Shown here: piece by piece, positions 18,003 through 55,596 of the stretch
How positions within the stretch are numbered: position 1 is the stretch's first letter
How the letters are laid out: each line of letters opens with the position of its first letter
Assembly: GCA_029779845.1 (NCBI GenBank)
Contig: JAKOZT010000134.1
Coordinates: 40,448 to 104,447 of the forward strand
Length of the DNA: 64,000 nt
Origin: Pseudomonadota bacterium
Lineage (GTDB): Bacteria > Pseudomonadota > Gammaproteobacteria > Burkholderiales > Burkholderiaceae_C
Direction of reading: 5' to 3'
The notes under the pieces: generated by a model
The model's database searches: none
What the model was told of the DNA's origin: nothing
Seen by the model: the letters and a program-made list of their open reading frames with translations, nothing else
Translations under genes and position numbers: made by a program

Positions 18003-18497
18003 ATGGATCCGCGCCGAAGGTCGTTTCTTCGCGGCAAGCTCGCGGACGTCGGCGCGCGGGAAGTCCCCCCGCCGCCGCGCCCGCCCTGGTCGCTGCACCC
18101 CGACGCGCAGTTCACGTCGCGCTGCACGCGCTGCGGCGACTGCGTACGCGGCTGCCCGCGCGGCGTGCTGCACGCCCGCGGCGGCGGCTATCCGCAGATC
18201 CGCTTCGACGCGGCAGGCTGCAGCCTGTGCGGCGAGTGCGCGAGTGCCTGCCAAAGCGGCGCGATCGACCGCGCGACGATGGCGCAGGCCTTCGAGTGGC
18301 GCGTCGACATCGGCGCGGCCTGCCTGAACCGGCGCGGCGTCGAGTGCCGCGTCTGCGGCGATGCCTGCGAGGCGCGCGCGCTGCGCTTCGTGCCCGCGCG
18401 CGGCGGCATCGCGCAATTGCGCGTCGACACCGAGGCCTGCACCGGCTGCGGCGAGTGTGTCAGCGTCTGCCCGGTGGCGGTGATCAGCCTGCGCTGA
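18003..18497 (+). CDS. napF: Ferredoxin-type protein NapF, divergent from napDAGHBC
   Basis: MDPRRRSFLRGKLAD; clusters CTRCGDCVRGCPRG, CSLCGECASACQSG, CRVCGDACEARA, CTGCGECVSVCPV. Confidence 0.92.
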   Translation: MDPRRRSFLRGKLADVGAREVPPPPRPPWSLHPDAQFTSRCTRCGDCVRGCPRGVLHARGGGYPQIRFDAAGCSLCGECASACQSGAIDRATMAQAFEWRVDIGAACLNRRGVECRVCGDACEARALRFVPARGGIAQLRVDTEACTGCGECVSVCPVAVISLR

Positions 18498-19806
18498 GCG
18501 TGTCGACCGCCGGCGGCCACCAGCGCATCACCACGCGCAGGCCCGGCGCGGCGTTGGCGATGCGCAGCTCGCCGCCATGCGCCTGCGCGACCAGCCGGCA
18601 CAGGTAGAGCCCGAGGCCGACGCCGCCGGCGCCGCGCGTGCGCGCGCTGTCGGCGCGGAAGAACGGCTCGGCCAGCTGCGGCAGCTGTTCGTCGGCGACG
18701 CCGGGGCCGTGGTCGCGCACGCCGAGTTCGAGCCCGCCGTCGGCGCCGCGCGCGAGGAACACCTCCGGCGGCTCGGCCGACGCGGGGCTGTGGCGCAGCG
18801 CGTTGGCGATCAGGTTGCGCAGCAGCAGGCGCAGCCGGGCCGGATCGGCGTGCACGCGGCCGGCCTCGTCGTCCAGATCGAGCCGCAGCGCGCGCGCCGC
18901 GAAGCCGTTGCTTGCGGCCACCTCGCGCACCAGCGCCGCCACGTCGACACGCTCGGTCTGCAAGGCGGCGTGGCCGGCGGCGAGGCGCTCGCTTTCGAGC
19001 AGGTCGGTGATCAGGTCGCGCATCTCGCCGAGGTCGCGCAGCAGCGCGTCGCGGTGCTCGCCCTCGCCCACCAGCTCGGCGTTCAGGCGCGCGCGCGTCA
19101 GCGGGCTGCGCAGCTCGTGGCTGATCGCCAGCAGCAGCGCGCGCTTGGCGTCGAGCATGCCGCGCAGGCTGGCGGCCATGCGGTTGATGCGTTCGGCCAG
19201 GTCGCCCAGCTCGTCATCGTGCCGGCTCGCGATGGGCTGCGCGAACTCGCCGCGGCCGAAGCGCGCCACGCCGGCGCCGATCGCCTCCAGCGGCTTCAAC
19301 AGATGGCGCACGTAGGCATAGGCCAGCGCGGTGAGCAGCAGCAGCGCGGCGAGCGTGAACCAGCCGAACAGGCGCGGCTGCGCCTGCGGCGGCGGGGCGG
19401 CCAGGCCGAAGGCGATGCGGTGGCCGTCGGCGCTGTGGCGCACCAGGCTCCATTGCGAGGGGCCGAAGCGGTGTTCGTGCGCTGAAGCCTCCTCGTCGTG
19501 CGGATGCGAGTCGTAGTGCAGCAACGGGCCGTCGATGCGAATCGTCACCGGCAGCCGCGCGGCGATCGCAGCGGCGCGGACGGCGTCGGGCGGCGCGCCG
19601 ATCTCGGCCACCAGCCGGTCGGCGTAGTCGGCCACGATGGGCTGCACCCAGCCCTGCCAGCCGGCGCGCAGCGCGCGCTGCGTGCCGAACATGAACACGC
19701 CCGAGGTCGCCAGCGCGAGCAGCAGGAACAGCGTGACCAGGCGCCACTTCAGCGAATGGCGCCAGCGCCGCCGCGCTTCCTTCCAACGGCCGTGGCGGCG
19801 CTTCAT
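18484..19806 (-). CDS. Sensor histidine kinase (HAMP-HisKA-HATPase, CpxA/RstB-like)
   Basis: LLAISHELRSPLTRARLNAEL H-box, HATPase motifs NLIANALRHSP, VRDHGPGV, GGVGLGLYLCR. Confidence 0.93.
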   Translation of the reverse strand: MKRRHGRWKEARRRWRHSLKWRLVTLFLLLALATSGVFMFGTQRALRAGWQGWVQPIVADYADRLVAEIGAPPDAVRAAAIAARLPVTIRIDGPLLHYDSHPHDEEASAHEHRFGPSQWSLVRHSADGHRIAFGLAAPPPQAQPRLFGWFTLAALLLLTALAYAYVRHLLKPLEAIGAGVARFGRGEFAQPIASRHDDELGDLAERINRMAASLRGMLDAKRALLLAISHELRSPLTRARLNAELVGEGEHRDALLRDLGEMRDLITDLLESERLAAGHAALQTERVDVAALVREVAASNGFAARALRLDLDDEAGRVHADPARLRLLLRNLIANALRHSPASAEPPEVFLARGADGGLELGVRDHGPGVADEQLPQLAEPFFRADSARTRGAGGVGLGLYLCRLVAQAHGGELRIANAAPGLRVVMRWWPPAVDTLSAG

Positions 19807-19810
19807 GAGG

Positions 19811-19891
19811 CGGGCCGAGCGCCGGGCCGCTCCCAAGCCGGCCCGCATCCCCGCGGGGGATCGGCCGACGTACCCGGCGGCCGAGGGGCAG
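19811..19891 (-). repeat. 81-bp structured dispersed repeat, copy A (between response regulator stop and histidine kinase start)
   Basis: Reverse complement matches 25616-25696 at 79/81 positions. Confidence 0.92.
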
Positions 19892-20581
19892 TCATAAACG
19901 TACTCCGGCGAAGGTGTAGCCGGCGTTGCGCAGCGTCTTGATGCAGTGCAGCGGCTCGAGCTTGCGGCGCAGCCGGCTGACCAGGATGTCGACCGCGCGG
20001 GTGTGGATGTCTTCGGCGGCCTGGCCGCGCAGCCGCTCGAGGATGTCGTCGCGGTGGAACACCTTGTTCGGCGTGCCGGCCAGCAGCGCGAGCAATTCGA
20101 ACTCGGTGCCGGTCAGCTCGACGGCCTCGCCGCGGCGCTCGACGCTGCGCCGGTCGAGGTCGATCACCAGGCCGTCGAAACGCCAGACACGCGATGCCGA
20201 TGCGGGTGCGTGCGCTGCCGGCACCGCGCGCCGCAGCACCGTCTGCAAGCGCGCCAGCAGCTCGCGCGGCTCGAAGGGCTTGGGCAGGTAGTCGTCGGCG
20301 CCGAGCTCGAGGCCGACCACGCGGTCCATCACGTCGCCGCGCGCGGTCAGCATCACGATCGGCAGCGTGCTCTCCTTGCGGATCGTGCGGCACAGCTCGA
20401 AGCCATCCATCTCGGGCAGCATCACGTCGAGGATCGCCGCGTCGAAACCGCCGCCGCGCAGCAGCGCCAGCCCTTCGCTCGGCCGCGTCGCATGCACCAG
20501 CTCGAAGCCCGAGCGCGCCAGGTAGGCGCGCAGCGGCGGCCCGAGGGCTTCGTCGTCATCGATCAGCAGCAGGCGCGGCAT
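19892..20581 (-). CDS. OmpR-family response regulator
   Basis: Receiver MPRLLLIDDDEALGPPLRAYLARSGFE...AILDVMLPEMDGFELCR...LGADDYLPKPFEPRELLARL and wHTH C-terminus. Confidence 0.94.
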   Translation of the reverse strand: MPRLLLIDDDEALGPPLRAYLARSGFELVHATRPSEGLALLRGGGFDAAILDVMLPEMDGFELCRTIRKESTLPIVMLTARGDVMDRVVGLELGADDYLPKPFEPRELLARLQTVLRRAVPAAHAPASASRVWRFDGLVIDLDRRSVERRGEAVELTGTEFELLALLAGTPNKVFHRDDILERLRGQAAEDIHTRAVDILVSRLRRKLEPLHCIKTLRNAGYTFAGVRL

Positions 20582-20602
20582 CCAGCGATCTTCGCACCAG
20601 CT

Positions 20603-21076
20603 TCAACCGCGCCAGCCATGCCGCCCCCGGCGGTTCATGAACTCGCGCACCTTGGCCTGCTGCTCGGGCCGCAGGCTGTCGTAGAAGTCGCCGAAGGCGG
20701 CGATCAGCTCGGGGCTCTTGTCGTTGATCGCGGTGGTCTTGGGATCGACCAGCGCCTTGGCCTTGGCGCGGTCGAAGGTGCTGCCAGCCACCAGCGACTG
20801 CATTTCCTCGCGCGGGTTGCCGCCGGCCACCAGCGCATTGCGCTGCTCGCGCAGCTTGTCGGCCACGACGCCGAGCCTGGCCTTCTGCGCTTCGTCGAGG
20901 TCGAGCCGGCTGCCGACGCGCTCGACCAGCCGCGCCTTCATCTTCGCCGCGTCTTCTTCGCTCATCGCCTGCCAGCCCATGCCGGGGTGCATGCGGTGCG
21001 AGCAGGCGGCCAGGCCGCCGAACAGCACGCTGGCGCCGAACACGCCGATCAGGGTGCGCTTGATCCATCGCTTCAT
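20603..21076 (-). CDS. Spy/CpxP-like periplasmic protein
   Basis: Signal peptide with lipobox-like LAAC; LDLDEAQKARLGVVADKLREQRN and LRPEQQAKVREFMNRR; located upstream of RR/HK. Confidence 0.72.
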   Translation of the reverse strand: MKRWIKRTLIGVFGASVLFGGLAACSHRMHPGMGWQAMSEEDAAKMKARLVERVGSRLDLDEAQKARLGVVADKLREQRNALVAGGNPREEMQSLVAGSTFDRAKAKALVDPKTTAINDKSPELIAAFGDFYDSLRPEQQAKVREFMNRRGRHGWRG

Positions 21077-21262
21077 CTCAGTGCTCCGTCGTTGAGGGAT
21101 GAAGCGATGGTGCGAGCGGCGCGCTCGCGTGTCCTTTCGGCGCGGTATCGCCGCGTAACGTTTTTTGTCGTCACTCGCCGCCGGGGCCCGGCGGCGCGGC
21201 GGCGGGTCCGGCGCTCATGGGCGACATTCTGGGCCGCCGTGCCGGCCGCGCCGGCCTCAGGG

Positions 21263-21943
21263 TCAGCGCGCCAGCCGCGCTCGCATCGCGGCGATCACCG
21301 CCTTGTAGTCGCGCTGGCCGAAGATCGCGCTGCCGGCCACGAAGGTGTCGGCGCCGGCATCGGCCACCGCGCGGATGTTGTCGACCTTGATGCCGCCGTC
21401 GACCTCGAGGCGGATGTCGCGCCCGCTCGCGTCGATGAGCTTGCGCGCGCGCTCGATCTTCTTCAGCGCCGCCGGAATGAAGCTCTGCCCGCCGAAGCCC
21501 GGGTTGACGCTCATGATCAGCACCAGATCGACCTTGTCGATCACCCACTCCAGCGCGTCCAGCGGCGTGGCGGGGTTGAAGACGAGGCCGGCCTGGCAGC
21601 CTTCGGCCTTGATCAGCTGCAGCGTGCGGTCGACGTGCGCGCTCGCCTCGGGGTGGAAGCTGACCAGGTCGGCGCCGGCCTTCGCGAAGGCCTGCGCCAG
21701 CGCGTCGACCGGCTGCACCATCAGGTGCACGTCGATCGGCGCCTTGGCGCCGTCGGGCGTCACCGCGTGCTTGCGCAGCGCCTCGCAGACCATCGGGCCG
21801 AAGGTCAGGTTGGGCACGTAATGGTTGTCCATCACGTCGAAGTGGATCCAGTCGGCGCCGGCCGCGAGCACGTTGCGCACCTCTTCGCCGAGGCGGGCGA
21901 AGTCGGCGGAGAGGATGCTCGGTGCGATGCGGTAAGTGCTCAT
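21263..21943 (-). CDS. rpe: Ribulose-phosphate 3-epimerase
   Basis: [22 protein letters not shown]...[17 protein letters not shown]...[14 protein letters not shown]...[12 protein letters not shown]. Confidence 0.97.
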
Positions 21944-21979
21944 GGAAAGAATTCTAGGTGCGCTCCTAGAATCGCCGTC

Positions 21980-22354
21980 ATGGCCCGGCCCGAGCTCACC
22001 AACACCGTCGTCGTGCGTCCGCTGCCCGAGCAGTCGGACCCGGCCGCAGGCCAGCACGCCTTCGCCTACACGATCACGATCCGCAACACCGGCGACATCG
22101 CCGCGCAGCTGATCGCGCGCCACTGGATCATCACCGACGCCGAGGGCCGCACCGAGGAAGTGCGCGGCCTCGCGGTGGTGGGCCACCAGCCGCTGCTGCA
22201 GCCCGGCGAGCGCTTCGAGTACACCAGCTGGACGCGCATCCCCACGCCGCACGGCAGCATGCGCGGCACCTTCTTCTGCATGACGGAAGACGCGCGGCCC
22301 TTCGACGCCCCGGTGCCGGAGTTCGCGCTGGCCGCCGCGGCGACACTGCATTGA
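21980..22354 (+). CDS. apaG: ApaG protein
   Basis: [55 protein letters not shown]...GSMRGTFF. Confidence 0.95.
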
Positions 22355-24369
22355 GCGCCGGCGCCGCGATCGCCGGCCGCGCCCGCGCCGCCGGCTGGGA
22401 CCTGACCGCGCTGCTCAACGCCGCCGATCCGAAAGCCTCGCTGGCCGAGCGCCAGCTCTGGCTGGTGCGCCTGATGGAGTGGCTGCGCCGCGCGCCGCTG
22501 GAAGGCGAGGCCGAGCGCGCCACGCCGCTGCCGGTGCTGCGCCTGAAGCACCTGCTCAACGTGCTGCAGCGCCACGACGAGCACCGCCTCGCGGTCGGCG
22601 CGCTGCTGGCGCGCTTCTGGCGCGAGGTCGACACCGTCGCGCTGCTGGCCGACTTCGGCTTCGCGCCGCGCACCAACTTCTTCGGCGAGCTGGGCCAGCG
22701 CCTGCGCTTGCGCCTCTTGCCGATCACGCCCGAGACGCAGGACCTGGGCGAACTGTTCGCGCTGCTGTTCCCGAGCGAGCGCGACGCGCAGTGGCTGGCC
22801 GCGATCGACGACGACACGCTGGCGCGCCTCGTCGACGCGCTGGCGCCGCTGGCCGCGCAGGCCGGCGACTGGCGCGAACCGCTGGTCGAGGGCATCGCCT
22901 ACCTCGCCGCGGCAGTGCGCGCCTCGGGCCACTCGGGCGCCTTGCGCCAGCGCATGAGCGCCGAGCTGCTCGCCGACGACCCGTTCCGCCAGCTCGCCAG
23001 CAGCGCCGAGCGGCTAGGCGGGCACACGCGCTCGGGCAACGACGCAGCCTTGCTGCAGGAAGCGCAGTACCTGCGCGCGCTGCTCGACGCCTGCCGGCGC
23101 GCCGCGGCCAGCGTGCGCGCGCACCTGGAGCAGTACGGCGTGTCGGTCGGCATCGTCTTCGAGACCGACCAGCTGCGCGCGCGCTGCGAGCGCATCGAGG
23201 CGCTGCTGAACACGCTGCTCGCACCGCAGCCGGCGCGCGAGCTGCTGCGCCTGATCGCCGACCTGGCGCAGCAGGCGCAGGCGCGGCGCGGCATCCGCAG
23301 CCTGTTCGCGCGCCACTACTCGCTGCTGGCGCGCAAGGTGGCCGAGCGCAGCGCCGAGACCGGCGAGCACTACATCACGCGCGACCGCGCCGAGTACCGC
23401 GCGATGCTGCGCGCCGCGGCCGGCGGCGGCGCGGTGATCGTGCTCACCACCTTCATCAAGTTCGGCATCGGCGCGCTCGCCCTGGCGGCGTTCTGGTCCG
23501 GCTTCGCGGCCGGCATCAACTACGCGGCGAGCTTCGTGCTGATCCATCTGATGCACTGGACGGTGGCGACCAAGCAGCCGGCGATGACCGCGCCGGCGAT
23601 GGCGGAGAAGCTGAACGACGTCAGCGACGACGCGCGCGTCGAGGCCTTCGTCGACGAGGTGGCGCACCTGATCCGCTCGCAGGCCGCCGGCATCTTCGGC
23701 AACCTGATGCTGGCCGGGCCGGTGGTGCTGGCGGTTCAGCTCGCCGCGCAGGCCGCCTTCGGTGCGCCGCCGGTGGGCGCGGCGCAGGCCGGGTACGTGC
23801 TGCACTCGCTCACGCTGCTCGGGCCGACCGCGCTGTACGCGGCGTTCACCGGCGTGCTGCTGTTCGCCAGCTCGATCATCGCCGGCTGGGCCGAGAACTG
23901 GTTCGTCTGGCACCGGCTCGACAGCGCGATCGCCTGGAACCCGCGCTCGATCGCGCTGCTCGGCGCGGCGCGCGCGCGGCGCTGGGCGGCGTGGTGGCGC
24001 GCCAACGTGTCGGGCCTCGCGGCCAACATTTCGCTCGGCCTGATGCTCGGGCTGGCGCCGGCGATCGCGGGCTTCTTCGCGCTGCCGATCGAGGTGCGCC
24101 ACGTCACGCTGTCCACCGGCCAGCTCGCCGCCGCCTTGGGCGCGCTCGGCTTCGGGCTGCTGCGCGAGGGCGCGTTCTGGTGGTGCGTGGCCGGCATCGC
24201 CGTCACCGGCGTGCTCAACCTGACGGTCAGCTTCGCGCTCGCCTTCAAGGTGGCGCTGCGCTCGCGCGGTATCCGCCTGGCCGATCGCAGCCGCATCTAC
24301 CGCGCGATCCGCGCGCGGCTGCGGACCCAGCCTTTGTCGTTCGTGTTCCCGCCGAAGGACTCAGCCTGA
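22351..24369 (+). CDS. Gcr-family 'site-specific recombinase'-like membrane protein
   Basis: 672-aa protein with N-terminal helical region and C-terminal TM segments, adjacent to apaG; TTG start overlapping the apaG stop. Confidence 0.72.
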
Positions 24370-24486
24370 ATCGCGCTCGTCGTCGCGACGGCGCTCGCCC
24401 TTCCTGCGCCCGGAGAACATCGTCCACCACACGATCAGCAGCAGGACGGCGAGCGCGCCTAGCGCTTCCAGCAGAATCAATCCCAT
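24361..24486 (-). CDS. Putative 41-aa single-TM membrane protein
   Basis: [41 protein letters not shown]: one TM plus positive tail; start codon overlaps the mltA start on the other strand. Confidence 0.4.
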   Translation of the reverse strand: MGLILLEALGALAVLLLIVWWTMFSGRRKGERRRDDERDSG

Positions 24487-25612
24487 GACGATGTCTCGAT
24501 GCCGCGCGTTGATGGGCGCGGCGATTCTAGGAGGGCTGGCGGCCTGCGCCGTGGTGCCGCCGCCCGAAGCTCCCCCCACCCCCGTCCCCTCGGCCACGCC
24601 GGGCGCCGCGACGCCCATCGTGCGCCACCGTGCGCGCTGGCTGCCCGCCGACTGGAGCGAGCTGCCCGGTTGGGCCGGCGACGCGACGCGCGAGCTGTGG
24701 CCCGCCTTGCAACGCGGCTGCGAGAGGCCGGCGCCGGGTTGGGAGAGCGTCTGCCTCGCGGCGCGCGCCATCACCCCGGCCGGCGACGCCGAGGCGCGCG
24801 CCTGGCTGCAGCAGCGTTTGCGGCCCTACCGCGTCGAGAGCCTGGAAGGCAGCGCCGAAGGCCTGGCCACCGGCTACTTCGAGCCGCTGGTGGCGGCGCA
24901 GCGCGAGAAGCGCGCGCCGTACCAGGTGCCGCTGCACGCGCTGCCCGACGACCTCGCCGCGCGCAAGCCGTGGTGGACACGCCGCCAGATCGACACGCTG
25001 CCCGCCGCGCAGGCCGCCCTGCGCGGGCGCGAACTCGCCTTCGTGGCCGACCCGCTCGACGCGCTGCTGCTGCAGGTGCAGGGCTCGGGCCGGCTGCTGA
25101 TGAATGAAGCCAACGGCAGCAAGCGCCAGGTGCGCGTGGCCTACGCCGGCCACAACGACCAGCCCTACAAGTCGGTGGGCCGCTGGCTGATCGAGCAGGG
25201 CGAGCTGAAGCCCGGCGAGGCCTCGTGGCCGGCGATCAAGGCCTGGGCGCGCGCGAACCCGAAGCGCCTCAACGAGCTGCTGTGGAGCAACCCGCGCTAC
25301 GTGTTCTTCAAGGAGGAGGCGCTGCCCGATCCGGGCGTCGGCCCCAGGGGCGCGCAGGCCGTGCCGCTGACGCCGGGGCGCTCGATCGCCGTCGACCCGC
25401 AGGCCGTGCCCTACGGCACGCCGGTGTGGCTGGACACCACCGAACCGCTGTCGAGCACGCCGCTGCGCCGCCTCGTGATGGCGCAGGACACCGGCAGCGC
25501 GATCACCGGCGCGGTGCGCGCCGACTACTTCTGGGGCTGGGGCGAAGACGCCGAGGCGCAGGCCGGGCGCATGAAGCAGCCCTTGCGCATGTGGGTGCTC
25601 TGGCCGCGGTGA
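24485..25612 (+). CDS. mltA: Membrane-bound lytic murein transglycosylase A
   Basis: Lipoprotein signal GGLAAC; LATGYFEPLVAAQREK, VQGSGRLLMNE, MAQDTGSAITGAVRADYFWGWG. Confidence 0.94.
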   Translation: MTMSRCRALMGAAILGGLAACAVVPPPEAPPTPVPSATPGAATPIVRHRARWLPADWSELPGWAGDATRELWPALQRGCERPAPGWESVCLAARAITPAGDAEARAWLQQRLRPYRVESLEGSAEGLATGYFEPLVAAQREKRAPYQVPLHALPDDLAARKPWWTRRQIDTLPAAQAALRGRELAFVADPLDALLLQVQGSGRLLMNEANGSKRQVRVAYAGHNDQPYKSVGRWLIEQGELKPGEASWPAIKAWARANPKRLNELLWSNPRYVFFKEEALPDPGVGPRGAQAVPLTPGRSIAVDPQAVPYGTPVWLDTTEPLSSTPLRRLVMAQDTGSAITGAVRADYFWGWGEDAEAQAGRMKQPLRMWVLWPR

Positions 25613-25615
25613 TGT

Positions 25616-25696
25616 CTGCCCCTCGGCCGACGGGTACGTCGGCCGATCCCCCGAGGGGATGCGGGCCGGCTTGGGAGCGGCCCGGCGCTCGGCCCG
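25616..25696 (+). repeat. 81-bp structured dispersed repeat, copy B (between convergent mltA and GGDEF gene)
   Basis: 79/81 identity to reverse complement of 19811-19891; contains CGGCCGAC-GGGTAC-GTCGGCCG and ATCCCC-CGA-GGGGAT hairpins. Confidence 0.92.
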
Positions 25697-25702
25697 GAGA
25701 AA

Positions 25703-26809
25703 TCAGCCGGAAACCACCTTGTTGCGCCCCTGCTGCTTGGCCTCGTAGAGCGCGCGGTCGGCGCGCGCGATCGCCTCCACCGGCGATTCGCCCCCGGCCA
25801 CTTCCACCAGCCCGGCCGAGAGCGTGAAGGCCAGCTCGGCCGCACCGTGCGCGACGCGCAGCGCCTCGACGCGCGTGCGCAGCCGCTCCAGGCCGAGGCG
25901 CGCGGCGGTGAGGCCGGTGTCGGGCAGCATCAGCATGAACTCCTCGCCGCCCCAGCGCGCCAGCACGTCGGCCTCGCGGATCGCCGCCAGCGCCTCGGCG
26001 GCGAAGACTTCCAGTACGCGGTCGCCCGCCGGGTGGCCATGCGCGTCGTTGATGCGCTTGAAGCGGTCGATGTCGAGCACCGCGAGGCAGAAGCGGCCGC
26101 CGCCGCGCACGCAGCGCGCGCGCTCGGCCTCGATCAGCGCGGCCATGTGGCGGCGGTTGGCCAGGCCGGTCAGCTCGTCGCGCTGCGCCAGCGCCTCGTT
26201 GCGCGCCAGCGCCTCGCGCAGCTCGGCCTTCTGGCGCTTGAGCGCATCGCGCAGCAGCCCGAGCTGGCCGGCCAGGATGGACACCGCCGGCAGGAAGATC
26301 GCGATGACGAGGAAGTGCGCGAACTCCACCTCGGGCGGGTAGACCAGCGGATCGCGCCAGGCCATCACGCCCATCGCGGTGCCGAACAGCTGCAGCGCCA
26401 GCCAGCTCATCAGCCGCACCTGGCGCGGGCTCAGCGAGTACAGGCCGAACATCAGTACCACCATCATGATCGGGAACACCGCGCCGCGGCCGCGCCCGGC
26501 CAGCATGTAGGCGAGCGCCCCCACCACCAGCGAGAAGCTCATCTGCGCCAGCGTCAGCGAGGGGTCGCTCCAGCGCTCGCTGAGGCCGCTGCGGATCGCC
26601 GCGTAGAAGCCCAGCATGCCGCCCATGCCGAACAGCGCCAGCGCCAGCATCGGCCCGGGCGCGGCCAGGCCCGCGCCGACCAGGTAGCCCATGCTCGCCA
26701 CGCTGTAGGCCATCAGCGCGCAGGCGAGCAGGCAGCGCGCGCTGCGCAGGCGCAAGCGCCGCTCGCGGCCGAGCAGCGCATCGACCAGGGCTCGCCAGCG
26801 CGCGCTCAT
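25703..26809 (-). CDS. Membrane-bound diguanylate cyclase (GGDEF)
   Basis: N-terminal TM region; RDELTGLANRRHM, DIDRFKRINDAHGHPAGDRVL, ARWGGEEFMLMLP. Confidence 0.94.
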   Translation of the reverse strand: MSARWRALVDALLGRERRLRLRSARCLLACALMAYSVASMGYLVGAGLAAPGPMLALALFGMGGMLGFYAAIRSGLSERWSDPSLTLAQMSFSLVVGALAYMLAGRGRGAVFPIMMVVLMFGLYSLSPRQVRLMSWLALQLFGTAMGVMAWRDPLVYPPEVEFAHFLVIAIFLPAVSILAGQLGLLRDALKRQKAELREALARNEALAQRDELTGLANRRHMAALIEAERARCVRGGGRFCLAVLDIDRFKRINDAHGHPAGDRVLEVFAAEALAAIREADVLARWGGEEFMLMLPDTGLTAARLGLERLRTRVEALRVAHGAAELAFTLSAGLVEVAGGESPVEAIARADRALYEAKQQGRNKVVSG

Positions 26810-33872: not shown

Positions 33873-34442
33873 ATGACCCAGAAGACCCTGCTCGCCACGG
33901 CCCTGCTGGCCGCCGCCGGCTTCGCCCACGCGCAGAGCGCGACCTACCACGTCGAGCCGACGCACACCTTCGTCACCTTCGAGGCGAAGCACTTCGGCAC
34001 CTCGACGCTGCGCGGCCGCTTCGACAGGAAGGACGGCAGCGTGCAGATCGACCGCGCCGCCAAGACCGGCAAGGCCGAGATCACGATCGACATGAACTCG
34101 GTGAGCACCGGCGTCGGCCCGCTCGACGGCCACCTGAAGAGCAAGGACTTCTTCGACACCGCCGCCAACCCGAGCGCGAAGTTCGTCGCCGACAAGTTCG
34201 TCTTCGACGGCGACAAGGTCGCCGAGGTGTCGGGCGCGCTGACGCTGGCGGGCAAGACCAACCCGGTGACGCTCAAGGCCACCAACTTCAACTGCTACCA
34301 GAGCCCGATGCTCAAGCGCGAGGTGTGCGGCGGCGACTTCGAGACCACGCTGGTGCGCAGCCAGTACGGCATCGTCTACGGCCTGCCGGGCATTCCCGAC
34401 AACATCCGCCTGCTGATCCAGATCGAGGCGATCAAGCAGTAA
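33873..34442 (+). CDS. YceI family periplasmic protein (copy 2)
   Basis: ATYHVEPTHTFVTFEAKHFGTSTLRGRFDRKDGSVQID...PSAKFVADKFVFDGDKVAEVSGALTLAGKT. Confidence 0.94.
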   Translation: MTQKTLLATALLAAAGFAHAQSATYHVEPTHTFVTFEAKHFGTSTLRGRFDRKDGSVQIDRAAKTGKAEITIDMNSVSTGVGPLDGHLKSKDFFDTAANPSAKFVADKFVFDGDKVAEVSGALTLAGKTNPVTLKATNFNCYQSPMLKREVCGGDFETTLVRSQYGIVYGLPGIPDNIRLLIQIEAIKQ

Positions 34443-34455
34443 GCGGATTGCCGCG

Positions 34456-35025
34456 ATGAAGCGCACCCTGGCCGCCGCGTTCGGGGCCGGGTGCGCACTG
34501 CTCGCCGGTGCGCAGCCGGTGAGCTACCGGCTCGATCCGGCGCACAGCTTCGTGCATTTCGAGGTGATGCACTTCGGCACCTCGACGCTGCGCGGGCGCT
34601 TCGGCCCGCTCGACGGCATCGTCGAATTCGATCGTTCGGCGCGGCGCGGCGAGGTGTCGGTGATCGTGCCGACGCGCATCGTCAGCACCGGCGTCGCGCC
34701 GCTCGACGGCCGGCTGCGCCAGGCCGACCTGCTCGCCAGCGACGCCTGGCCCGAGGCCTTCTTCGTCGCGCGGCAATTCGTCTTCGCGGGCGATGCGCTG
34801 CGCGAGCTGCGCGGCGAGCTGACGCTGCGCGGCATCAGCCGGCCGCTGGCCTTGCGCGCCGAGCGTTTTTCCTGCGGCGTACACCCGGTCGTCCAGCGCG
34901 ACTGGTGCGGCGGCGACTTCGAAGCCGAGCTGCGCCGCAGCGATTTCGGCATGGACTTCGGCCTGCCGCTGGTGGCCGACCGCGTGCGCCTGCGCGTGCA
35001 GGTGGAGGCGATCGCGCAGCGGTGA
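34456..35025 (+). CDS. YceI family periplasmic protein (copy 3)
   Basis: VSYRLDPAHSFVHFEVMHFGTSTLRGRFGPLDGIVEFD; clear paralogue of copy 2. Confidence 0.92.
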   Translation: MKRTLAAAFGAGCALLAGAQPVSYRLDPAHSFVHFEVMHFGTSTLRGRFGPLDGIVEFDRSARRGEVSVIVPTRIVSTGVAPLDGRLRQADLLASDAWPEAFFVARQFVFAGDALRELRGELTLRGISRPLALRAERFSCGVHPVVQRDWCGGDFEAELRRSDFGMDFGLPLVADRVRLRVQVEAIAQR

Positions 35026-54693: not shown

Positions 54694-55596
54694 TCAGCCC
54701 ACCGCGAAGTTGACCGGCAGCCCCGGCACGTCGACCTCGAAGGCGAGCACGCAGCCCGCCGCCGGCTGTGCGGCCAGTTCGCTTTCCGGCCGCTTGTCGC
54801 GCGCGGTGGTCACATAGATCGTCTTCAGGTCGGCGCCGCCGAAGCAGGGCATGGTCGCGCAGCGCACCGGCAGCGCCAGCTCGCGCACGGTCTCGCCGCT
54901 CGGCGAAAGACGCAGCAGGCGCTGGCCCTCGAACATCGCCACCCAGTAGCAGCCTTCGGCGTCCACCGCCGCGCCGTCGGGGCGGCCGCCGTAACTCTCC
55001 AGCGGCTGTCCGGCCTGCTTGAGCGGAAAGCGCGCGAACACGCGCCGGCTGCTGAGCTCGCCGGTCGAGGGCTCGAAATCGAAGGCGTGGATGGTGTGGG
55101 CCGTGGTGTCGGTCCAGTACATCGTGCGGCCGTCCGGGCTCCAGGCCAGGCCGTTGGCGACGGTGGCCTCGCCGGCGCGCTTGGCCAGCTTGCCGCCGGC
55201 CCAGCAGTGCAGCGTCGCCTTCGCCGCATCGCGCGGCTCGTAGATCGTGCCGGCCCAGAAGCGCCCTTGCGGATCGCACTTGCCGTCGTTGAAGCGCTCG
55301 TGCGCCGGGTCGTAGGGCGGCTCGGCGAGCCGCGTGCGTTCGCCGCTGGCAGGGTCGAAGCGGAACAGGCCGTCGCGCATCGCCAGCAGCAGCGTGCCGT
55401 CCAGGCAGGGCGCGCAGCTGCCGGGTTCGGACTCCAGCTCCCAGTGCTTCAGTTCGCCGCTCGCCGGATCGAAACGGTTCAGCCGCCGGCCCGGAATGTC
55501 GACGTAGTAGAGCGCCGCTTCGCGCGGATGCCAGAACGGCGATTCGCCGAGCCGCGCGGGGGAAGCGACGGCGACGCGGATCTCCGGCTCGTTCAC
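54694..55596 (-). CDS. SMP-30/gluconolactonase/LRE family protein
   Basis: LGESPFWHPREAALYYVDIPGRRLNRFDPASGE...NDGKCDPQGRFWAGTI...NGLAWSPDGRTMYWTDT; GTG start. Confidence 0.93.
   Translation of the reverse strand: MNEPEIRVAVASPARLGESPFWHPREAALYYVDIPGRRLNRFDPASGELKHWELESEPGSCAPCLDGTLLLAMRDGLFRFDPASGERTRLAEPPYDPAHERFNDGKCDPQGRFWAGTIYEPRDAAKATLHCWAGGKLAKRAGEATVANGLAWSPDGRTMYWTDTTAHTIHAFDFEPSTGELSSRRVFARFPLKQAGQPLESYGGRPDGAAVDAEGCYWVAMFEGQRLLRLSPSGETVRELALPVRCATMPCFGGADLKTIYVTTARDKRPESELAAQPAAGCVLAFEVDVPGLPVNFAVG

Follow-up and report, generated by a model that had tools for sequence, protein, structure and literature searches.

The 81-bp repeat at positions 19811–19891 of the window (the whole stretch of 64,000 nucleotides analysed here) is one copy of a dispersed family of hairpin-rich sequences, many of which lie between two genes of the same operon. 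From the comparison of copies, insertion sites and reading frames we conclude that the repeat is probably a MITE-like element with stop/start overlaps as its insertion sites, and that it probably persists as a translated relay, which would preserve the translational coupling of the two genes that it separates.

Structure, copy number and distribution

The sequence-only reading had described this copy (copy A) as a palindromic dispersed repeat with three predicted stem-loops inside the operon of a response regulator (RR) and a histidine kinase (HK), and that description is correct. On the plus strand, hairpin 1 (19811–19845) is the most conserved, hairpin 2 follows at 19847–19861, and hairpin 3 (19862–19883) carries the most covariation. 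The folding energy of the single sequence is no better than that of shuffles for copy A (z = –0.09), compared to z = –2.1 for the second copy in the window, copy B; as the value for copy A is not significant, covariation was used instead. In an alignment of 40 copies 97.6% of cells are paired, 10 pairs are changed on both sides compared to 3.3 in shuffles, and the covariation score was reached by none of 500 shuffles, so that all three stem-loops are supported by covariation. A covariance model, proposed earlier as a check, was built from the 40 copies. Against the covariance models of Rfam, the 6.8 kb from 19400 to 26200 gave no hit at E values of up to 1.

A genome-wide BLAST search returned at least 40 matches with 87–100% identity, and the covariance model gave 51 matches at E < 0.01 in the source genome (G000, a draft that is 94% complete). 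The count of at least 51 disposes of the concern, raised in the sequence-only reading, that only two copies might exist. The element is present in all eight sampled genomes of the genus, with 8–45 copies in each of seven congeners. Elsewhere in the family it is patchy and occurs in other genera, and outside the family the covariance model gave one marginal match. Among the matches listed for an exact 24-mer, the named genomes are Piscinibacter, Roseateles/Pelomonas, Aquabacterium, Methylibium, Rhizobacter, Ideonella and Rubrivivax, together with further similar Burkholderiales and a few MAGs with other labels. A plasmid search for the element gave no match, and among phages the sole match was weak and partial, in a Streptomyces phage.

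Copy B, 98% identical to copy A, lies at 25619–25699 (plus strand) in the sense used earlier; the covariance model places it at 25614–25696 on the minus strand, where it fills the gap between two convergent genes, an MltA-like lytic transglycosylase gene with its stop at 25612 and a GGDEF gene with its stop at 25703. With up to three mismatches allowed, the window contains a 27-mer core twice, compared to zero occurrences in 100 shuffles. A third match to the covariance model at 55006–55077 (plus strand) is weak (19.9 bits, E = 0.16) and is probably due to chance or to a decayed copy. The window also holds, at 33873–35025, two neighboring paralogous genes of 189 aa whose DNA is ~72% identical (direct repeats, 580 bp separation).

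Loci L048–L152 of Roseateles/Pelomonas (e.g. L057, L079, L113) form a longer subfamily (~140 nt), in which an additional hairpin separates hairpin 1 from hairpin 2. Its members are nearly always antisense and close after a stop codon, usually before the start of the next gene; an antisense gene is on the 3' side in 31 of 35, a niche unlike that of the short family. Diverged relatives of the element (L078, L072 and L277; e.g. GGGCCGCCGCGCCGGGCCGCCCCAAGCAAGGCCCG...) point to a broader superfamily in Burkholderiales.

Gene neighborhood and insertion sites

Copy A comprises 83 positions of the family sense strand (19811–19893, plus strand; R1 cmsearch, 92.6 bits). A re-check of the window sequence confirms the 81-mer and shows that its placement on the minus strand was exact. 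The 81-mer begins right after the RR stop codon (19894–19892) and finishes 4 nt short of the HK ATG at 19806, as had been claimed. The response regulator (Response_reg and Trans_reg_C; 19892–20581) and the sensor histidine kinase (HAMP, HisKA and HATPase_c; 18484–19806) are both encoded on the minus strand. The kinase ORF remains open if it is extended to 19848, an ATG within the repeat, and the N-termini of the kinases of relatives fit a start at 19806. In a first ATGA (19892–19895, minus strand; a single NTGA in the relatives, L249–L251 and L253) the RR stop TGA overlaps the start of a putative relay frame, and in a second (19803–19806, minus strand), a putative target-site duplication, the TGA of that frame overlaps the HK start ATG. 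The inserted unit plus the flanking ATGA duplication covers 19803–19895, and over the same interval on the minus strand an in-frame ORF of 30 codons leads from the RR stop to the HK start (translation MTAPRPPGTSADPPRGCGPAWERPGARPAS, then stop). On the plus strand, which is the family sense of copy A, a frame is open as well (19805–19897; translation MRRAERRAAPKPARIPAGDRPTYPAAEGQS, then stop). The inserted sequence is an open in-frame reading frame and not an untranslated hairpin spacer. In the alignment, a Shine–Dalgarno-like GAGGGG (19883–19888, plus strand) lies ~5 nt ahead of the downstream ATG in sense copies; that of copy A, which lies antisense in its operon, is not used for HK.

Genes were called with a simple codon-usage caller trained on the window, and genome-wide gene context was taken from fetched loci with this caller. 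Among 163 non-redundant copies with both neighbors called, co-directional genes flank 120 copies in sense and 17 in antisense; the neighbors are convergent for 19 copies and divergent for 7. The sequence-only reading, though right on the placement of the repeat, took it in the less common orientation: for most copies, the other strand serves as the sense strand. The 3' end of that sense strand (GAGGGGCAGTC) abuts a start codon; it has the form GAGGGGC-A/T-G-T/A-C, with the start codon immediately after it in most copies. Within operons the layout is gene1-ATGA-element-ATGA-gene2. The flanking pairs include genes that we take, from their sequences, to be murC/ddl, feoA/feoB, mrdA/rodA, fliL/fliM, hemF/nadD and pyrB/pyrC, and the genes next to different copies are unrelated to one another. 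In 15 of the 163 copies the caller extended a neighboring gene at its N- or C-terminus into the element, which again lies within the called coding frame; L288, L290, L325 and L011, L037 are such in-frame extensions, N-terminal on the downstream gene or C-terminal on the upstream gene.

The RR and HK genes of congeners share four bases, which read GTGA in G007, G001 and G003 and ATGA in G002. This single overlap, compared to ATGA-element-ATGA in the window, implies that copy A is an antisense insertion with a duplicated ATGA, and its anatomy argues for preserved RR–HK coupling. At murC/ddl, a plain ATGA is found in G007, G001 and G005, and ATGA-element-ATGA, in sense orientation, in the source genome. 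We searched the flanks of elements from two pairs of related genomes in the partner genome and aligned 20 filled/empty pairs. At least 9 of the 20 have one NTGA when empty and two when filled (e.g. L356/L401, L358/L402, L359/L399, L333/L368), and in several the duplication is not clear. L336/L370 and L337/L369 are pairs without gene overlap, in which the element lies at the second gene's start codon and an upstream in-frame ATG now opens the frame through it. At feoA/feoB and mrdA/rodA the spacing varies among relatives, so that the empty sites there do not fix exact boundaries. In convergent copies, copy B among them, the left ATGA/NTGA is missing and no duplication is evident. NTGA is thus no absolute requirement for insertion; it may be what the element truly targets, or its presence may in part be due to survival.

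The reading frame through the element

In 62 of 65 copies with A/GTGA upstream and NTGA downstream, the frame from the first NTGA has its stop in the TGA of the second. Thirteen in-frame spacings occur (82, 85, 88, 91, 94, 100, 103, 106, 109, 112, 118, 124 and 136 nt). The two commonest, 85 and 109 nt, are in frame automatically if the length of the element is fixed. When these are left out, 29 of 32 copies are still in frame (p about 2e-11 if copies are independent, an optimistic value because related copies are not). Where an ATGA lies within 60 nt upstream the three phases are populated 63:2:3, compared to 11:8:18 for the internal control, CTGA/TTGA. In a second set of 60 loci, read after the frame hypothesis had been formed and counted by hand, 19 of 20 ATGA junctions are in frame, and 2 of 5 CTGA junctions. 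All five antisense copies of the same geometry, copy A included, are in frame and their peptides differ. When hairpin 1 is shifted by one base, the total length stays in phase and the local peptide is different. Tandem copies ~90 nt apart (L047, L072, L084, L102, L142, L327) have lost the inner stop, so that the frame continues. None of 78 relay cores contains an in-frame stop; as the sequence is GC-rich and other frames are mostly open too, openness alone is weak and it is the phase that constitutes the evidence. An early reading of the repeat as a leader that supplies just a Shine–Dalgarno site was dropped once this phase had been seen.

The same observations bear on the alternative of an ordinary MITE-like element that inserts at ATGA with target duplication and whose frame is an unused by-product of a fixed length. 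We consider this unlikely. It would explain why the dominant lengths are in frame, and it agrees with covariation that keeps the hairpins and with codon positions that lack protein-type constraint: the synonymous share of codon changes is 0.20 compared to 0.30 expected at random, an excess of non-synonymous changes, third codon positions are the least variable, and no sign of purifying selection on the amino-acid sequence was found. It does not, however, account for eleven further spacings that are all equal modulo 3, for CTGA junctions at chance, for compensated base shifts in hairpin 1 or for the loss of inner stops in tandem copies. The frame pattern would instead fit selection on the passage of ribosomes and not on the product.

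In the relay that we propose, a non-autonomous, hairpin-rich mobile element (83-nt core, about 85–110 nt including the left arm) would insert at an NTGA stop/start overlap, or right at a start codon, leaving NTGA on both sides and both neighboring genes intact. The old start codon would then open a frame of 30–38 codons through the element. The stop of this frame would be the TGA within the second ATGA, where the downstream gene now starts. On finishing gene 1, ribosomes could restart on the element frame, cross it and restart on gene 2, helped in sense copies by the Shine–Dalgarno-like GAGGGG end. One coupled junction would be turned into two, and the element would be tolerated; frame-breaking copies are rare, presumably because gene 2 would be uncoupled or starved. 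Copy A would be an insertion of this kind between RR and HK, antisense yet in frame. A broader suggestion from the same sequences, on which our confidence is evenly balanced, is that there exists a class of mobile elements specialized for coupling junctions, which insert at NTGA in either orientation, carry a ribosome-relaying frame and are near-neutral in operons of essential genes.

An element that lands in an operon will normally disrupt coupling and bring about polarity. A translation-transparent element would, if our reading is true, show how selfish DNA can colonize operons of essential genes, and insertion into those such as murC-ddl and mrdA-rodA would be nearly neutral. Natural sets of operons with and without the translated spacer would then make dependence on termination–reinitiation directly testable. 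In Roseateles, Piscinibacter, Methylibium and related genera, the element may also account for the origin of many small ORFs that lack annotation.

Other readings and comparison with known elements

On the lines of the sequence-only reading, the repeat would be a REP/BIME-like element that stabilizes or terminates RNA at 3' ends and leaves less kinase than regulator, which now appears improbable. Stable hairpins and tight packing behind stop codons agree with it, as does the longer Roseateles/Pelomonas subfamily, antisense after stop codons. Location at gene 3' ends is nevertheless not the rule of the short family, which is mainly in sense between co-directional genes (the 120 of 163) and usually ends at a start codon, and the unit measures about 83 nt or more compared to 20–40 bp. 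A Y1/RAYT transposase was not found in the source genome, and the 6.8 kb searched against Rfam held no match. REP/BIME and REPIN with RAYT (PMC3733652, PMC2817692, PMC3116915) are also chromosomal, dispersed, palindromic and intergenic; the present element differs from the 20–40 bp palindrome with its GTAG/CGTC tag in being longer, in lying in sense at start codons and in lacking GTAG, CGTC being just internal and variable in its three-hairpin 83-nt unit.

Still less probable is a cis-regulatory RNA leader, a riboswitch or attenuator acting on the downstream gene. Covarying hairpins and a Shine–Dalgarno-like end at a fixed distance ahead of the ATG would suit such a leader, but the downstream genes are unrelated (ddl, feoB, rodA, fliM, nadD, acpS, pyrC), both orientations and convergent copies occur, sites are empty in relatives, and no Rfam model matches. 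A family of short genes for a functional peptide of 30–38 aa (RAERRAAPKPARIPSGDRP...) is hardly credible, for although most copies have an open frame with its own start and stop, the pattern of codon changes speaks against a conserved peptide, shifted and antisense copies encode unrelated peptides, and the element peptides have no match in Pfam/NCBIfam.

The preferred reading, a MITE-like element with a relay frame, agrees with the size class of MITEs (~70–300 bp, non-autonomous, without a transposase gene): the 83-nt core is present in about 51 copies and has no coding capacity beyond 30–38 codons. Target-site duplication and empty sites in relatives were found, the duplication not being evident in convergent copies. 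Terminal symmetry consists of a short ATGA/TCAT that is inseparable from the target duplication. Transposition would presumably be enzyme-driven; neither a transposase nor a parent IS for the element was found. Y1 transposase (PF01797/RAYT) has one match in G004 and none in the other seven of the eight genus genomes, the 94% complete draft G000 included. RAYT/Y1 as mobilizer was rejected; it was not found in the source genome.

We found no earlier description of the element in open-access text, nor any description there of an element at stop/start overlaps whose frame ends on the next start codon. Rickettsia palindromic elements (RPE), reportedly described by Ogata in 2000, lie in frame inside genes. 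RPE and other MITEs are earlier examples of small mobile palindromes that contain open frames (PMC2229807, PMC10969869). RPE resemble the present element in being small, palindromic and dispersed, with open frames tolerated in translated regions (PMC2229807, PMC10969869). They are inserted inside one protein, whereas the present element lies mainly between two genes at a stop/start overlap and, unlike RPE, ends its frame on the start of the next gene. According to PMC2229807, YPAL/RU-2 of Yersinia and NEMIS of Neisseria are likewise short dispersed hairpin elements, some with open frames, and YPAL also has filled and empty sites; the passages on these elements describe no relay at stop/start overlaps. 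At ATGA gene overlaps, coupling by termination–reinitiation has been established experimentally in other systems (PMC6728339). The junction type and the proposed mechanism are the same, with native gene pairs there and an inserted element here.
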